A stretch of DNA of 40,338 nucleotides from a virus, in the IMG/VR virus record IMGVR_UViG_3300032278_000030, positions 1 through 40,338 of that record; one strand, 5' to 3'. This document shows positions 4,706 to 40,338 of the stretch, piece by piece. The notes beneath the pieces are model-generated. The model had not been told where the DNA came from. It saw only the letters and a program-made list of their open reading frames with translations, and did no database searches. Positions within the stretch are counted from its first letter, which is position 1. Each line of letters starts with the position of its first letter. The position numbers and the translations under genes are program-made.

Positions 4706-6067
4706 ATGAGCACAAAGAAAATATCAGCGTTGACCGAACTGACCACCACGCCCGCCGTGGGCGACTTGTTTCCCATAGTGGACATAAGCGACACCACCGA
4801 CGCAGCCAGCGGCACGACCAAGAGCATCAAGCCAGCCACCGTGTTCAAGGCGGCTGGGATTGGGGCGGGAAGCACCACGGCAGAGCCTGTGGCGGTGGAC
4901 ACTTCAAACGGACGCCTTGGAGTGGGAACCGGTTCTCCTGCTGGCCCATTGCACGTGAGCAGCACAAGCGCCGACACCCTGTCCCTCACACGCGCCACGG
5001 ACATATCGGGTAATGGCACCGGAGTCGCCGCAAAACTCCAGATGGGAGCATTGTCGGGTTCCTCGAATTCCTTCGCCGCAGCGATAACAGGAACTTTGCT
5101 GGACTCTGATGGCGCGGGAGGGGGAACCAACACAGAGGGCTACATGTCTTTTTTAACCAAGGAGACAGGTGGTTCACTGAGCGAGAAGATGAGGATTATT
5201 GAGGACGGAAACGTCGGCATTGGTACGACTGCGCCAGCCACTCTTCTTGAGGTGAGCAGTACTGATGCGGCCTCTGTGGAAATTAGGGTAACAGCAGCCA
5301 CCAACCAAGATTCCAAACTTGATTTATATGGCGACAGGGATTGGAGCATAATGAACGTTGGAAGTGGAAGTGGTGGATTTGTTGACGGTATTTTCATATA
5401 CGATGTCACGGGTGGAGCAACTAGGATGGCTATTGATACGAGCGGCAACGTATTGATTGGCGGTCTTGCCACTCCCACTTCGTCCGTGGGCAATTTGTGT
5501 CTGTTCAACGGCACGGCCCCAGCGGCGAGCATTGCGAACGGCGTGGTGCTGTATGCGGAGGACGCCACCAGCAGTTCGGAGCTAAAGGTGCGGGATGAAG
5601 CGGGGAACATCAGTACCCTGAGTCCCCACAACTTCGATTTGCTGGGTGACCGTTCCGAGCCTATGGCGTGGAGTTATTCAGCCAAGAACGCTTTCGTGGG
5701 CAAGGAGATCGCCGTGGACATGACGAAGGTGATTCGGGCGCTGGAGAAACTCACGGGCGAAAGCTACATCAAGATACGGGACATCGATGATTCGGAGAAA
5801 CTGGATTGGGCCACCGAGCAGAAAAAATACGAAGCGGAGCAGAAGAAGAACATAGATGCCTACAAGGCGAAGAAGGCGGAGTCCGACGCCCATCCGACCA
5901 ATTCAAGCACGAAGGCTGAGATCAAGACGTTCTTGGACGAGAAGGGAATATCCTACGCGGATGCCCCCAAGGACGAGTTGTTCGCCAAGGTGCCCAAAAA
6001 GGAAGCTTTCACGGAGACGGAACCTGCCGCCTACTCGAAGAAGTCGAAACCCTCTTGGATAGGTTGA
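4706..6067 (+). CDS. Tail fibre-like protein with GIGT repeats and a HeH/LEM-like C-terminal motif
   Basis: Encodes 453 residues; an AGGAG site (4693-4697) precedes the ATG. The N-terminus (KKISALTELTTTPAVGDLFPIVD) is typical of phage fibre attachment segments. Residues about 70-270 carry GVGTGSPAGPLHVSS and VGIGTTAPATLLEVSS repeats, characteristic of trimeric beta-helical fibres. The usual S74 chaperone triad was not recognised. The last 110 residues switch to a Lys/Glu-rich helical tail with TKAEIKTFLDEKGISYAD, matching HeH/LEM-like motifs of some phage proteins. Host recognition is the likely role. A separate chaperone-like or DNA/protein-binding job for the tail is open. Confidence 0.7.
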   Translation: MSTKKISALTELTTTPAVGDLFPIVDISDTTDAASGTTKSIKPATVFKAAGIGAGSTTAEPVAVDTSNGRLGVGTGSPAGPLHVSSTSADTLSLTRATDISGNGTGVAAKLQMGALSGSSNSFAAAITGTLLDSDGAGGGTNTEGYMSFLTKETGGSLSEKMRIIEDGNVGIGTTAPATLLEVSSTDAASVEIRVTAATNQDSKLDLYGDRDWSIMNVGSGSGGFVDGIFIYDVTGGATRMAIDTSGNVLIGGLATPTSSVGNLCLFNGTAPAASIANGVVLYAEDATSSSELKVRDEAGNISTLSPHNFDLLGDRSEPMAWSYSAKNAFVGKEIAVDMTKVIRALEKLTGESYIKIRDIDDSEKLDWATEQKKYEAEQKKNIDAYKAKKAESDAHPTNSSTKAEIKTFLDEKGISYADAPKDELFAKVPKKEAFTETEPAAYSKKSKPSWIG

Positions 6068-20214: not shown

Positions 20215-20411
20215 CTTCCTTTCTGTTTTTCGTATTCCCGGATATCTTGTCGAAGTGCGTACAAGTCACCCAGATCGACTTCCCTGCACTTGCAGGCAGG
20301 TTCGTCCTCGTCGGCCCACTCCTCCCCGCACTTGGGGCATCTCACCCATCCGCGCGGGGCTTTGTCGGCCCAGAGATCGCCCTCGTCGTGAGCGGTTGGT
20401 TCTTCAGTCAT
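20211..20411 (-). CDS. Small zinc-ribbon-like protein
   Basis: Encodes 66 residues from ATG at 20411, six bases after AAGGAG. The centre carries CPKCGEEW and, 12 residues after the second Cys, CKC, a plausible Cys4 zinc site of ribbon type. A helix (LGDLYALRQDIREYEKQKG) follows. The gene overlaps its upstream neighbour by eight bases. Small zinc proteins are common in phage early operons, acting as nucleic-acid or protein binders. The target is unknown. Confidence 0.65.
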   Translation of the reverse strand: MTEEPTAHDEGDLWADKAPRGWVRCPKCGEEWADEDEPACKCREVDLGDLYALRQDIREYEKQKGR

Positions 20412-20622
20412 CCTTCTCTCCTTTCCTTAGTTTGAACTCGATGTGTTTGCAGGCTTCCTTGTAGGCTCCCTCCAAGTCCCTGAAGTACCCTTGGTATCCG
20501 TCACCCTTGACTATCCACTTGTCCAACTTGTGGTCAAGGGTGCACGTCGCCTTCCTACCTGTCGGCACGTGGGTCAGCGTTATGCTGTATCCCTTGCTGG
20601 TCACTTTGATATCGTCTTCCAT
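20404..20622 (-). CDS. Small early protein, unknown role
   Basis: Encodes 72 residues. It begins ten bases downstream of the preceding stop, with only a weak GAGG site, and overlaps the zinc-ribbon gene by eight bases. Two predicted beta hairpins (YSITLTHVPTGRKATCTL, DKWIVKGDGYQGYF) lead into a helix (LEGAYKEACKHIEFKLRKG). This beta-beta-alpha layout resembles small double-stranded-RNA- or protein-binding folds, but no signature residues confirm it. Confidence 0.65.
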   Translation of the reverse strand: MEDDIKVTSKGYSITLTHVPTGRKATCTLDHKLDKWIVKGDGYQGYFRDLEGAYKEACKHIEFKLRKGEKDD

Positions 20623-28489: not shown

Positions 28490-28568
28490 CTCTCTTCCTT
28501 TCGTTGTTGTTCATTGTTATGCCGTGTTCCTTACACACGGCGTGCATGATTTCGCTTATGTGTTTCAT
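28347..28568 (-). CDS. Possible small gene overlapping its neighbour
   Basis: ATG at 28568 overlaps the GP88-like stop as TGATG, and the first 26 residues (MKHISEIMHAVCKEHGITMN...) fill the gap before the next gene. The rest of the 73-residue frame lies inside the 28052-28489 gene in another frame and looks like a shadow (His/Arg/Asp-rich). The real product, if any, may be short-lived or a leader. Low support. Confidence 0.25.
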   Translation of the reverse strand: MKHISEIMHAVCKEHGITMNNNERKRDESGLRHDQDSKQVLLAGTGRRRADKGHRHGCDNSYAHFCEHVHRHE

Positions 28569-29215
28569 CAGTGTTTCTTGTAGGTGACGGAAGGCTTGAG
28601 CCAACAGGCTCTGCACTTTCCGCATTGGTTGTCCTGCTTGGGAGCGGGACAGACAAAGGTGTCTCCCTTTGGCTCACCAGCGGCGCTTGCGGTGGCTCCC
28701 CATCTCTTGGCCAGTTCCACGGGAGCGGGCTGGTCGAAGAACATGGCGGAGAACCTGACGCACAGGTTGTCGGGGAACGAGTTGCCTTGCTCGACCCAAG
28801 TCCTGACGATCTTGTACTCTCTGGTGGGTAGCCAATGCCTCGTGTCAGGCGTGTTCCGCGCCACTTGCACTATGTTCTCCAAGTGTTCGACGTCCTGTAT
28901 ATCTCCGACGTCGTGCCACCTGAACCAATCATCTCTCCTCACCAGCATGGTCATGGCCTCGACCCATTGCGGATGTCTGAGGGTTTGGTATCGTCTCTCC
29001 ATAGCTGCCTTCACGTTGGGGAAGACGTACCTTCCCCTGTCCCATCCATAGCAGAAGCTGCATATGGAACCCTTCTTCTCATGGAAGGCGCTGCCCACTC
29101 CACATCTCTGCGGCGGCAGATTGTAGGCATGGCCGGGCATCTTGCTGGGCTTGCTCAACCCGCCCGTTATCGCTTCCGCCTCATAGACGTAGCGTATTGT
29201 GTTTGGTTTGATCAT
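28568..29215 (-). CDS. GP88-family phage protein (Cys-rich)
   Basis: Encodes 215 residues, with AAGGAG five bases before ATG. The order KPSKMPGHAYNLPPQRCGVG, SICSFCYGWDRGRYVF, FRWHDVGDI, VARNTPDTRHWLPTREY is that of the gene product 88 family of phages. Cysteines (CSFCYG and, near the end, CPAPKQDNQCGKCRACW) could hold a metal or Fe-S centre, as the family's radical-SAM-like look suggests. Its biochemical role is not established. It is the most recognisable of the small early genes here. Confidence 0.75.
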   Translation of the reverse strand: MIKPNTIRYVYEAEAITGGLSKPSKMPGHAYNLPPQRCGVGSAFHEKKGSICSFCYGWDRGRYVFPNVKAAMERRYQTLRHPQWVEAMTMLVRRDDWFRWHDVGDIQDVEHLENIVQVARNTPDTRHWLPTREYKIVRTWVEQGNSFPDNLCVRFSAMFFDQPAPVELAKRWGATASAAGEPKGDTFVCPAPKQDNQCGKCRACWLKPSVTYKKH

Positions 29216-30381: not shown

Positions 30382-30438
30382 CGTTTGCCCCCTTGGATTT
30401 TCCCGTAGGGGTATTGTTATCTTCTTATATACGCGCGT

Positions 30439-30519
30439 CTACTCTCCTTTCTGCATTCCATACAAGGCGAGTAGGATGATGACGGCCAAGATGAGTGTCA
30501 CTAACAGCTTGTCCATCAT
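30439..30519 (-). CDS. 26-residue membrane peptide
   Basis: ATG at 30519 overlaps the preceding micro-gene's stop as ATGA and follows AAGGAGG by five bases. The product (MMDKLLVTLILAVIILLALY, then GMQKGE) is almost one transmembrane helix with a short charged end. The strong ribosome site and coupling make it more than a chance frame. Phage peptides of this size commonly modify the membrane or inhibit host proteins. Confidence 0.6.
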   Translation of the reverse strand: MMDKLLVTLILAVIILLALYGMQKGE

Positions 30520-30596
30520 GCCACCCTCCTTGTTGGTTTGCCGGGTTTCCGCACGAATCGCGGAACAATTATATACACTTCGTTTCCTGTCCTCAT
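30516..30596 (-). CDS. 26-residue basic peptide, middle of micro-gene chain
   Basis: ATG at 30596 overlaps the upstream stop as ATGA, and its own stop overlaps the next start the same way. The product, MRTGNEVYIIVPRFVRKPGK then PTRRVA, is basic and may fold as a short strand pair. Its last codons encode the AAGGAGG used by the next gene. Support comes from the double coupling. Function unknown. Confidence 0.5.
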   Translation of the reverse strand: MRTGNEVYIIVPRFVRKPGKPTRRVA

Positions 30597-30676
30597 GATT
30601 CCCTACCCTTCCAGTATTCGCTGGTTGAAGTGTCCTCTCCATTCAAGAGGGCTTCTGTTATATCATCTATGTTCAT
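30593..30676 (-). CDS. 27-residue peptide, first of micro-gene chain
   Basis: ATG at 30676 lies ten bases after AAGGA. The product (MNIDDITEALLNGEDTSTSE, then YWKGRES) is acidic and probably a single helix. It is the first gene after the terminator at 30725-30755, which also follows the structured region, so its promoter is either within these 50 bases or upstream with read-through. Function unknown. Confidence 0.5.
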   Translation of the reverse strand: MNIDDITEALLNGEDTSTSEYWKGRES

Positions 30677-30724
30677 GATCTTGGTTTCCTTCTATGTTGA
30701 GTTTTACTTCTTATGACCTGTAAC

Positions 30725-30755
30725 AAAAAATGCGGGACGCTTGACGCACGTCCCG
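30725..30755 (-). terminator. Intrinsic terminator of the structured RNA region
   Basis: On the - strand CGGGACG (30755-30749) pairs with CGTCCCG (30739-30733), followed by CATTTTTTG. This is a convincing Rho-independent terminator. It gives a defined 3' end to transcripts coming from about 32 kb and separates them from the micro-gene chain 50 bases further on. Read-through or antitermination would be needed for the downstream early genes if no promoter lies in between. Confidence 0.85.
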
Positions 30756-31660
30756 ATGAGAGATTCTTCATGTACCATCTCAGCGGCAAATCATTCATCG
30801 CTCCTACTGGCTCATGCCTTTCCACAGGCACTTGTCTTCGGCCACGCAGTATCATTGCTGGTATTCGGCTATTACGATACGGTTAGAGAAGGTTACACGG
30901 CGTTTTTCACTTGAACAAGGTAGGTATCTCACTGTCGACTTGTTGGAAGGCGTGCCTTGCGACTCCGCTTTGCGTCTCCCTACTATGCTGCACTCATTGC
31001 AAGCGCTTTGCTTTCACAAAGACCCAGTAACTGCTACGGACGTCGCTCCCCTTGTTTGTTTTGCGCAACTACGCAAGGGTGCTTGACGTCCACGACGTTT
31101 CTTCTCTCCCGGCCTATACATGAGATCATCGCGAAGCCCGCTTTTCGTTTAAATACGCATCGCTCGCCTTTCGGGTCATGGCAATACGCCGCTCATGTAC
31201 TTTTCTTTCATGCGATTTCCCACGTATAGGAAACCCATTGCATTTCTCTCGATGCCCGCGCTTGGCTAGTTCTCAACCTGTTACTGATATTCGCTACTTC
31301 ACCAACGGCATTTCAACCAATTGGATTATCGCTTACGCAACCAAGCCCGCTTTGAAACCAACCAACCATTTATAACTTTTCATAGCTCACGCCACGCATT
31401 ATTCGCAATTCGCATTCCCCGCGTCATCCACAAACCGCGCTCCCGTTTGTCTTTTCCAATACCTTAGGGGCAAAGGAAATGAAGTTCAGTAAACGTCAAA
31501 CGAGTGCTTGCATCACTTTGGAGAAAAACCTTTTCATTTACGTTTCGACTAAGCGCACCTTCCCCTACCCTAACAGGCAAGTCGGCTTTTTCTGAACGCT
31601 TCAAACGTCGAACGTCTTGCAATGCTTGGCATGACTTCAAATCGCCATGCAATGGCCTTG
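30725..31660 (-). ncRNA. Candidate large structured non-coding RNA
   Basis: No convincing gene occupies this stretch on either strand, but the - strand folds locally and at distance. TACATGAG (31199-31192) pairs with CTCATGTA (31124-31117). GACGTCC and GGACGTC arms (31085-31091 and 31038-31044) enclose a CCCTTG/CAAGGG stem. A hairpin at 31210-31243 joins ATGC/GCAT with a seven-pair stem. Three stems need a G-U pair that exists only if the - strand is transcribed, and hairpins close with GTAA-type and TGAAAG loops. The 3' end is an intrinsic terminator. Size and ornateness recall GOLLD and ROOL RNAs of phages; I cannot assign the class. The 5' limit is uncertain and may reach 31940. Confidence 0.55.
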
Positions 31661-31782
31661 CGTTGGTTTTCTAGATTACACCGTCTTTGGTTAAGAGCTT
31701 TCCCTGTTTGGCGTAGGCCCAAACGTTACGGGAAAGCAAACTAAGACAGATTGCCCTAAGCGCTTTCGTTGTCAGACCTTGC

Positions 31783-31857
31783 GCCAAGACCAAAAGGCCA
31801 AGACGCAAGACCGTCCATGCGTTGGCGCGTTGCCAAAGCCAAAAGGCCAAGACGCAA
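31783..31857 (-). repeat. Twin direct repeat, each copy able to form a hairpin
   Basis: Two 26-base copies (31783-31808 and 31832-31857) match at 24 positions, centred on CCAAAAGGCCAAGACGCAA. On the - strand each folds with CC(TTTT)GG at the tip. One copy closes with TTGCG/CGCAA, the other with GTTGC/GCAAC, so pairing is kept although the closing bases differ. They lie in the non-coding stretch between the structured RNA and the first early gene. Confidence 0.65.
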
Positions 31858-31863
31858 CACCGC

Positions 31864-31940
31864 GCACCGTAGGTTTTCTTAGGTATGTCAATGAAAGACG
31901 GGCATGGCCTACGCAAGGCAAGCCATGCCCTAAACGGTGC
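31864..31940 (-). other. Nested inverted repeats at the 5' side of the non-coding stretch
   Basis: GCACCGT (31864-31870) pairs with ACGGTGC (31934-31940) and encloses a perfect nine-pair hairpin, GGGCATGGC (31900-31908) with GCCATGCCC (31922-31930). There is no T tract, so it is not a terminator for the gene at 32001-32330. It may be the 5' domain of the structured RNA below it or a processing site between that gene and the RNA. Confidence 0.6.
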
Positions 31941-32000
31941 TTTGATTGCAATTCCACGGGACGCATCCTATGACAACTTGCAAGACCGTTTAAGCCGTTT

Positions 32001-32330
32001 CTAAGCGGCTTTGAAGTCAACGCGGTAATCGCCATTAGGCTTAATCGTTAACTTGGTGAACTTGCCGCCCAACCGTTGCTCGACGTTCTTGGCTTGGCCC
32101 GGAGTTAACCGACTAATGACTTGGTTAAGCGCCAAGACCAAAAGCGTGCGGTACGCCTTGAATTCGGCCACTTCTGAACGGTTAAGCCCTACGGCTTCCA
32201 TTTCTTTGCCTAGGCTTTTTACTTCCCCCGCGAGTTTTTCGCAAGATGCCAAAACTTCTTTGTCGGCATCCTTAGCCTTGCTGGCGTTGGCTTGGAATAA
32301 GGCAATGATTAGTGCGTGTATTTTATTCAT
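32001..32330 (-). CDS. First early gene, helical protein of 109 residues
   Basis: ATG at 32330 is chosen; 13 further upstream codons up to 32369 lack a ribosome site. The product starts MNKIHALIIALFQANASKAK, continues as charged helices (KLAGEVKSLGKEMEAVG, AYRTLLVLALNQVISRLTPG) and ends in a short strand pair (KLTIKPNGDYRVDFKAA). It is the promoter-proximal gene of the - strand operon and is followed by the non-coding stretch, so it may be expressed first and apart from the others. Family unknown. Confidence 0.6.
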   Translation of the reverse strand: MNKIHALIIALFQANASKAKDADKEVLASCEKLAGEVKSLGKEMEAVGLNRSEVAEFKAYRTLLVLALNQVISRLTPGQAKNVEQRLGGKFTKLTIKPNGDYRVDFKAA

Positions 32331-32412
32331 AGTATTATCTCTTGCTTTGGTTTGCTTTGGATGCCACACACAGTGCGGCGGTTAGGTAAAATTCAAATCT
32401 CATATTCACTAC

Positions 32413-32442
32413 CACAATTACATGTATGTACAATTGTGTCAA
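32413..32442 (-). promoter_or_regulatory. Possible early promoter with operator-like dyad
   Basis: On the - strand a perfect TTGACA (32442-32437) is followed by an 11-pair imperfect dyad (CACAAT, TACAT with ATGTA, ATTGTG; 32413-32438). The -10 box 16-17 bases on (TAATTG or AATTGT) is poor, so sigma70 use is uncertain. The dyad overlapping the -35 looks like a repressor site. It lies about 85 bases before the first early gene. Confidence 0.35.
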
Positions 32443-32482: not shown

Positions 32483-32700
32483 CCCGTTCACTTCCAATCA
32501 CTTCCAATGCATTTCGATTAGATGTTGCATCCAAAGAATAAGCCACCGGTCGGTCTTGCGTTACGCGTTACTCCAGTCGCGATCACGCGTTAACGCTACG
32601 CGTGAGGGTCAATGACAAGCGGCAAATGAGCGGCGAACGAGCGGCGGAAAACCTCGCCTCACGCACGGGGGGGCGGGGGTGCGACGCGTGATGCGCGCAA
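32483..32700. promoter_or_regulatory. Divergent intergenic region with dyad and tandem repeats (operator or origin candidate)
   Basis: No gene is seen between 32331 and 32784. Signals in order are two tandem copies of CACTTCCAAT (32489-32508); four ACGCGT sites within 127 bases (from 32563, 32585, 32598 and 32684); a perfect eight-pair dyad TCACGCGT/ACGCGTGA (32583-32590, 32598-32605); and three 11-bp tandem units (AGCGGCAAATG, AGCGGCGAACG, AGCGGCGGAAA; 32618-32650), then a G run. Repeats of this kind mark regulator or initiator binding. TTGACA at 32749-32754 is a possible -35 for the + strand but has no good -10. Confidence 0.5.
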
Positions 32701-33792: not shown

Positions 33793-35466
33793 ATGAAGTA
33801 TGCTGACGAAGTGAGCGTCCAGTTCGGGATACCTTGGTCTTCCGAGCTTGCTTATGAGCGCGGAGCGCTGAAATCGGGTTTGTCGGCTGATGAAGCCAAG
33901 CTGATGCTGGCTAATCAGCCGGAGAAAGCTGAATTTCTGATGGAGTTGCTGGACAATCAGCCGATGCAGGAGGAGATTGACCCGATACAATGGGGATTCA
34001 CCCTGCCGAGTTGGCAACGTGTGATGGACAGGTGGGACAAGGACAAGATACACGTGATATTTGGAGGAAACCGTTCATCCAAAACAACGTTTGCTTCTCG
34101 ATTGCTGGTGCATTTGGCCCAGATGATACCGGAGGCGGAGCTTAGAAGCTTCCACGTGACGGAGGATCGGAGCATAGAGGACACGCAGAAGTTTGTGTGG
34201 GACGCGATACCGAAGCGGTTCAAGGACATGAGGAAGCGTTCTGACACTCATTCGCTTAGTTACACGCACAAGAACGGGTTCACGGACGGGAAGGTGATAT
34301 TTCCGCCAGCGGAGGGACACAAGAGGGGGAGTTATCTGCGGTTCAACAACTATCGGCAGTTCTTGCAGGACAGTCAGATAATAGAGGGGATGACTGCTCA
34401 CTGCATACACTTGGAGGAGGAGTGCCCGGCCCGCTTGTTCGAGACTTTGCTTGCGCGTGTGGCTGATTATCACGGCAGGATCATCATGACCTTCACCACT
34501 TTGCAGGGGTGGACTGACTTGGTGAGCAGTTTGCTGCGTGGGGCGGAGACGGTGGAGAGCAGGTGGAGCGACTATTTGGGGATGGAGTTGCCGATTGAGC
34601 AGGTCAGCGCGAACTGGGAGGGATGCCGGATACATTACTTTTGGTCGGAGGACAATCCGTTCTTTGACTCCAAGGAGTTGAGGAAGGCGTACTCGAAGCA
34701 GCCGCTTGAGGTGAAGCAGGCGCGGTTGTACGGTGTTCCGACCAAGGTGTTCATGAACAAGTTCCCGAAGTTCAATCCCCACTTGAACGTGGTGGCTCAC
34801 GGGGACATTCCGTTCATCAGGGATTCGGAGGAGCGCGTGACGCGGTACATGGTGTGCGATCCTGCTGGGTCGAAGCCTTGGGTGATGATTTGGGTGGCGG
34901 TGGACAGGGACGGCGTGTGGTGGGTGTACAGGGAGTGGCCCGACTCGACGGTCGGGGCATGGGCTTTGCCCCATGCGAACGCGAAGGGGAAACCAGTCGG
35001 CAAAGCTGGGCCGGGACAGCGACCGGTGGGATACGGGTACGAGGACTATGCGGAGTTGATGAGGGACTTGGAGCAGGACGAGGAGATATTCGAGCGATTG
35101 GTTGACCCTCGATTCGGGAAGGCTACGGTGCGGACGGCTCACGGCGAGACGAACATGTGCAACGAGATGATGGAGTACGACGTGTTTCTGCGGCCCGCTC
35201 CCGGCTTGGAGATTGAGCACGGCATCCAGAAGATAAACGATTTGCTTAGTTGGGACGACGTTGAGCCGAGGAGCCATGAGAACAGGCCGAGCCTGTACGT
35301 TTCGGAGCGATGCGACAATTTGATATACGCGATGACTGAGTACAGCGGGAGTTCGAGGGACGAAGCCTGCAAGGACTTCGTGGACGTTCTGAGATACGGG
35401 GCTGTGACGCCTTTGGACTACGTCGCGGAGGGTCAGTTGTCGGTGACTGGGGGAGGAGGCTACTGA
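33793..35466 (+). CDS. terL: Terminase large subunit (packaging ATPase and nuclease)
   Basis: Encodes 557 residues. It pumps DNA into the prohead and cuts concatemers. The ATPase part has Walker A FGGNRSSKTTF (about 90-100) and Walker B CIHLEEECP (about 204-212), and the coupling motif FTTLQGW follows. The RNase-H-like nuclease has MVCDPAGSKP (Asp356), LVDPRFGKAT (Asp438) and DFVDVLRYG (Asp528/Asp531). No other start is possible without crossing a stop, yet ATG at 33793 has no ribosome-binding site and follows a folded spacer. Length is normal for the family. Confidence 0.93.
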   Translation: MKYADEVSVQFGIPWSSELAYERGALKSGLSADEAKLMLANQPEKAEFLMELLDNQPMQEEIDPIQWGFTLPSWQRVMDRWDKDKIHVIFGGNRSSKTTFASRLLVHLAQMIPEAELRSFHVTEDRSIEDTQKFVWDAIPKRFKDMRKRSDTHSLSYTHKNGFTDGKVIFPPAEGHKRGSYLRFNNYRQFLQDSQIIEGMTAHCIHLEEECPARLFETLLARVADYHGRIIMTFTTLQGWTDLVSSLLRGAETVESRWSDYLGMELPIEQVSANWEGCRIHYFWSEDNPFFDSKELRKAYSKQPLEVKQARLYGVPTKVFMNKFPKFNPHLNVVAHGDIPFIRDSEERVTRYMVCDPAGSKPWVMIWVAVDRDGVWWVYREWPDSTVGAWALPHANAKGKPVGKAGPGQRPVGYGYEDYAELMRDLEQDEEIFERLVDPRFGKATVRTAHGETNMCNEMMEYDVFLRPAPGLEIEHGIQKINDLLSWDDVEPRSHENRPSLYVSERCDNLIYAMTEYSGSSRDEACKDFVDVLRYGAVTPLDYVAEGQLSVTGGGGY

Positions 35467-39739: not shown

Positions 39740-40338
39740 ATGGCTACCGCTACGAGCTATAACGTCGCTGGGAACAGGGAGCAGATTTTGGATGTGCTCA
39801 CAATTCTTGAGCCGGAGGAAACCCCTGTGGTTTCGATGGCCAAGAAGTTGCCCGCGTCAGCCACTTTCGTGGAATGGCAGGTGGATAATTTATCCGCCCC
39901 TGCATTTGGCGGAGTTGGCGAGGGGGAGGATGTGTCTTCTTTCTCAAACAAGGTAATCAATCGGACGAAACTTGGAAATTACGTCCAGAAATTCCGCAGG
40001 GAATGGATGGTCAGCGATATTCAAGAACTCGTAAACACCGCCGGGGTCTCCAGCGAAGTGGCCAACAGTGAGGCCAAATCCATGCGTGAACTGAAACGCG
40101 ATCTTGAGGCTGCCATCTGCTCCGTGCAGGACAGACAGGCTGAAGCCGGATCGGGTACGCCGTACAAGACGCGCGGACTGGGAAAGTGGCTCGCCAATGG
40201 TGGCACCGCTGGTTCGGCTCCGTCCGACTTGCCGTCTGCGTATCAGTTGCCGAGCGCATCTCTTGACAGCACGGCGACGGTTCTGGAGTCGCACTTCAAC
40301 ACGGTGGTGCAGTCGCGTTACGAGACAGTTGGAAACGC
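39740..40338 (+). CDS. Major capsid protein, 3' end beyond the window
   Basis: GGAGG lies nine bases before ATG at 39740. The first 199 residues are present and run off the end. The N-terminal block (EQILDVLTILEPEETPVVSM, then FVEWQVDNLSAPAFGG) is the DUF5309/SU10-like capsid family pattern of the HK97 fold. The following segment (KLGNYVQKFRREWMVSDIQE, SEAKSMRELKRDLEAAICSV) also fits. Comparable proteins are, from memory, about 300-350 residues, so roughly a third is missing. It forms the icosahedral shell together with scaffold and portal. Confidence 0.85.
   Translation, partial: MATATSYNVAGNREQILDVLTILEPEETPVVSMAKKLPASATFVEWQVDNLSAPAFGGVGEGEDVSSFSNKVINRTKLGNYVQKFRREWMVSDIQELVNTAGVSSEVANSEAKSMRELKRDLEAAICSVQDRQAEAGSGTPYKTRGLGKWLANGGTAGSAPSDLPSAYQLPSASLDSTATVLESHFNTVVQSRYETVGN

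Follow-up and report, generated by a model that had tools for sequence, protein, structure and literature searches.

The window, a 40,338-base IMG/VR record taken at its full length, belongs to a marine-type phage whose plus strand carries the late genes and whose minus strand carries the early ones. The terminase large subunit is encoded at 33793-35466 (+) and matches the PHROG terminase family. It has 42 relatives in IMG/VR, with identities of 57-88%, and only distant relatives among cultured phages (best 32%). One related fragment is contained in a Verrucomicrobiota metagenome-assembled genome, which gives only a hint that Verrucomicrobiota may be the host group. The early minus-strand genes include an exonuclease-VIII-like gene. 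A GP88-domain protein (Pfam PF17338) is encoded at 28568-29215 (-) and has relatives in Pelagibacter, Roseobacter and Caulobacter phages. A 109-aa orphan gene and a row of tiny genes flank a noncoding stretch, with the following features.

32414-32442, minus strand: TTGACA overlapping an ACAATT...AATTGT dyad, a possible promoter/operator (read from the sequence)
32001-32330, minus strand: upstream orphan gene of 109 aa (from the ORF list; no relative in phages or IMG/VR)
30733-32000, minus strand: noncoding stretch, a candidate structured RNA at its corrected extent of about 1.27 kb (no coding frame, no family match of its ORFs, fold z)
30733-30755, minus strand: intrinsic terminator with an 8-bp stem and a 7-nt loop, followed by CATTTTTT (terminator scan; hairpin z -3.7)

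Between about 30240 and 32100 every minus-strand frame has codon log-odds below zero, and the windows on that strand from 27000 to about 30200 are mostly positive. The early genes flanking the stretch mostly show the codon use of the genome, which no frame within about 32000-30733 does, and the ORFs of the stretch match no family in PHROG or Pfam. These results bear out the original prediction that a region of the early genes lacks a credible gene, and minus-strand early genes indeed surround it. The extent given there, 30725-31660 (about 0.9 kb), is noncoding throughout, but its upstream edge has to be moved: helices run past 31660 to about 31997 when a longer piece is folded, which brings the true length to about 1.27 kb.

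The downstream end agrees with the intrinsic terminator proposed earlier. A good terminator is present at 30755-30733 (-), with the sequence CGGGACGT-gcgtcaa-GCGTCCCG-CATTTTTT, and is the better of two terminator-like sites on the minus strand. As read from the sequence, three tiny genes of about 26-27 aa (30676-30439, -) with overlapping stop and start codons (ATGA) lie directly behind it. The first of them (27 aa, 30676-30593) begins about 60 nt past the terminator, and the last is a likely membrane peptide (MMDKLLVTLILAVIILLALYGMQKGE). At the other end, the promoter scan shows no clear sigma-70 promoter for the stretch. The TTGACA at 32442-32414 is without a good -10 box and is absent from the promoter-scan list. 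The 109-aa gene probably shares a transcript with the stretch.

Folding of the longer piece places the structural signal mainly at 31992-31697, upstream of the earlier edge. The best-folding part spans 31600-32000, and the 300-base window 31750-32049 reaches z -4.6 on the minus strand. Over 30725-32000, z is -2.84 on the minus strand (40 shuffles; -1.94 with 24 shuffles of a slightly longer piece) and -0.29 on the plus strand. From 5' to 3' on the minus strand, the predicted elements are:

31931-31992, minus strand: hairpin TAAACGGT/ACCGTTTA with inner stems (pair probability 0.92; z -2.5)
31900-31930, minus strand: perfect 13-bp hairpin GGGCATGGCTTGC/GTAGGCCATGCCC (fold; z -5.4)
31832-31862, minus strand: first of two copies of a 31-nt hairpin arm, GTTGC...GGCC-tttt-GGCT...GCAAC (direct repeat; alternative long-range pairing with 31166-31194)
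31777-31813, minus strand: second copy, a strong hairpin CTTGCG..GGCC-tttt-GGTC..CGCAAG (direct repeat; z -6.5 for 31810-31777)
31697-31737, minus strand: hairpin GCTTTCCC/GGGAAAGC with inner GTTTGG/CCAAAC (pair probability 0.97; z -3.3)
31355-31669, minus strand: irregular rod-like domain of 315 nt with the base AAACCAAC/GTTGGTTT (z -2.9 on the minus strand, -0.6 on the plus strand)
31258-31349, minus strand: domain closed by GCTTGGT/GCCAAGC (pair probability 0.78)
31214-31235, minus strand: hairpin (found in sequence and fold)
31117-31199, minus strand: TACATGAG/CTCATGTA stem, 31199-31192 with 31124-31117, a local pairing that competes with the long-range one (z -0.6, at chance level)
31038-31091, minus strand: GGACGTC/GACGTCC double stem, 31091-31085 with 31044-31038, enclosing CCCTTG/CAAGGG (pair probability 1.0; z -3.9)
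30814-30831, minus strand: GTGCCT/AGGCAT stem (found in sequence and fold)

The two copies of the hairpin arm (31832-31862 and 31783-31813) are identical at 28 of 31 positions. Between them, an outer pair is exchanged from G-C to C-G with pairing kept, and an inner pair changes from GGCT to GGTC, which is still pairable only through G-U on the minus strand. On comparison of the copies, these differences read as one small internal compensatory event. A long-range pairing between 31847 and 31166 appears in the minimum free energy fold; since it has local hairpins as competitors, it is kept only as an alternative. In addition, 16 nt (CTTTTGGTCTTGGCGC) are identical between 32144-32129 in the 109-aa orphan gene and 31796-31781 in the second hairpin copy (E 0.04), which may hint at a local duplication.

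The fold signal is uneven and has counterparts elsewhere in the genome. All the stems named in the original prediction that we looked up are present, but an excess over chance within the interval given there is not confirmed. The fold energy of 30725-31660 (-) gives z = -0.29 against dinucleotide shuffles, and perfect stems of 8 or more pairs number 15 in the interval, compared with 10.6 +/- 3.3 expected, a count that 13 of 100 shuffles reach. The wobble pairs noted in three stems as possible only in minus-strand RNA add little, because any search that permits G-U yields such pairs and chance expects them. In the 3' half (30725-31150) the fold is at chance level. In this genome, 700-base coding windows attain z -3.2 to -3.9, and when 502 windows of 160 bases were scanned, the region's best one came third, most others being ordinary. 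Fold energy alone is thus indecisive. Windows with z of about -3.6 or below, comparable to the best window of the stretch, are also found at 5520-5679 (+), 39760-39919 (both strands) and 20240-20559 (both strands).

The stretch matches none of the known RNA families searched. Rfam release 15 at gathering thresholds gave nothing in the whole window, and at E<=5 nothing in 30400-32400. GOLLD and ROOL, named earlier as known classes of similar size, are large noncoding RNAs of phages and prophages that often lie near tRNAs and form RNA-only cages (PMC12286853). The stretch resembles GOLLD, which exceeds 800 nt and has many domains, and ROOL with its elaborate structure, in being large and phage-borne (PMC12286853). 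Unlike them, it lacks a match to either model searched alone at E<=10 (RF02032 and RF03087) and has no tRNA nearby or anywhere in the 40,338 bases, hence no tRNA island; it is also about twice as long as ROOL. OLE, HEARO, tmRNA and bacterial 23S rRNA are likewise large structured bacterial RNAs. The covariance-model check proposed for GOLLD, ROOL, HEARO, OLE and tmRNA found nothing, the OLE and HEARO models searched alone being unmatched at E<=10 and ARAGORN detecting no tmRNA. For ROOL and OLE the control genomes gave no match either, so these two results represent the model search by itself. The bacterial LSU (23S rRNA) model, positive in 10 of 14 control genomes, was unmatched at E<=10; the rRNA-like look that the 3' part has by eye, for example around GTCGACAGTGAGATACC and GAAGACAAGTGCC, was rejected on this ground.

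In a narrower piece searched at E<=10, the only bacterial-type Rfam model that aligned was IMES-2 (RF02035), at full length and on the right strand (31154-31014). The two share loop letters around AGU-GCGC-AAA and GUAGC. The alignment scores 11.4 bits, compared with a cut-off of 54.7 (E 1.2-5.8), and contains many non-standard pairs. This is chance level, and the IMES-2 model gave no match when run against the entire record.

The stretch also stands alone in the searched collections. BLASTN against INPHARED, PLSDB and E. coli genomes gave no relative. The collection of related contigs, suggested earlier as a check, was carried out in IMG/VR and GTDB with DNA patterns across the stretch and by way of neighbouring and marker genes (terminase, GP88-like protein, exonuclease, 109-aa protein); neither route yielded a homologue. 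Back-translated patterns served as a device for scanning several DNA patterns at once and imply no protein. Homologues closer than about 90% should surface in these scans, and more distant ones may escape because the patterns need exact matches. The only pattern matches, from one 17-nt pattern and back-translated patterns, lie in unrelated coding DNA of two records (L053, L054). Weak matches of 21-33 nt in four others (L044-L046, L018; E 0.01-0.14 per record) were judged to be chance. Rfam at gathering thresholds detected no RNA in the relatives. A relative whose terminase is 85% identical (L005) has no room for the stretch beside its terminase small subunit, indicating that the element is accessory in this phage group.

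Directly supported are the noncoding status of the stretch, its terminator and a modest minus-strand-specific fold signal. Our tentative reading is that it may give rise to a noncoding orphan transcript of the early region, which could be a large structured RNA. Early minus-strand transcription would cover the stretch along with the 109-aa gene or immediately after it, starting upstream of that gene at the TTGACA/dyad (32442-32414) and ending at the terminator (30755-30733). The resulting RNA of about 1.2-1.3 kb would fold into adjacent domains, namely the hairpins at 31992-31697, the 31669-31355 rod and a 3' half that is more loosely folded. By analogy with the manner suspected for GOLLD and ROOL, such a stable folded RNA, made early in infection, might act in trans, with scaffold or decoy as examples of its role.

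This reading is in line with the high-confidence adjacent helices, with the strand difference in z over 30725-32000 (about -2 to -2.8 on the minus strand, about -0.3 on the plus strand), with 1.3 kb free of coding signal amid tightly packed genes, with the terminator and with repeat copies that keep their pairs. Against it, coding windows and shuffles reach comparable fold energies and stem counts, the 3' half is at chance, the searches gave no homologue, a close relative is without the stretch and the scan shows no clear sigma-70 promoter. A large structured RNA is plausible and is put no higher, because the thermodynamic signal is weak and the searched collections hold no homologue. That the stretch represents an undescribed class, a phage structured RNA of about 1.27 kb unrelated in sequence to GOLLD and ROOL and made from the first early transcription unit, is possible though less likely than not, and from a single sequence a new class is not claimable. 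Known large phage RNAs are very few, and another unrelated example, if true, would mark such RNAs as a recurrent phage strategy. With one sequence and no covariation, the stretch is a candidate for keeping, not a discovery.

The main rival, only somewhat less probable, is that the stretch is accessory noncoding DNA, composed of decayed genes or a recombined spacer, in which the hairpins are those expected from composition, no RNA structure is selected and the terminator serves the upstream gene. The chance-level stem number and fold energy of 30725-31660 fit this explanation, as do the lack of the stretch in L005 and all other searched collections and the hint of local duplication given by the 16-nt identity with the upstream gene. 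Yet 1.3 kb of unused DNA is unusual for a 40-kb phage, several strong hairpins occupy the 5' third, and the terminator closes the distal end of the stretch and does not directly follow the upstream gene. Improbable is a long cis-acting leader or attenuator, in which the RNA and its terminator would gate the tiny-gene operon (starting at 30676) through antitermination or conditional termination. The terminator does precede the 27-aa gene by only about 60 nt, the following genes overlap start to stop, and the promoter scan shows none between terminator and first tiny gene; but known leaders and put/nut-type sites are far shorter, some 50-300 nt, and no anti-terminator pairing that competes with the terminator stem was identified. 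Undetected protein-coding content, as several tiny genes or a recoded frame, is very improbable: 60-90 aa ORFs occur on both strands and comparable long-ORF-free gaps of relatives, read in sequence, hold runs of tiny coding genes (for example L005 1-809 and L026 2111-2896), but none of these gaps resembles the stretch, every minus-strand frame scores noncoding, no family is matched, and back-translated patterns from several frames found no relative.

A further element is located outside the stretch, on the plus strand upstream of the terminase genes, where early and late genes diverge. The 17-nt GC-rich sequence GGGGGGGCGGGGGTGCG (32667-32683) is letter-for-letter identical in seven terminase relatives (L005, L011, L017, L018, L020, L026 and L032), some of which have a terminase only about 58% identical. 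A second conserved block (TATATT/TATTATCATCAC) follows some 20-30 nt after it. Judged from its conservation and position, GGGGGGGCGGGGGTGCG is a candidate cos/packaging site or control element.
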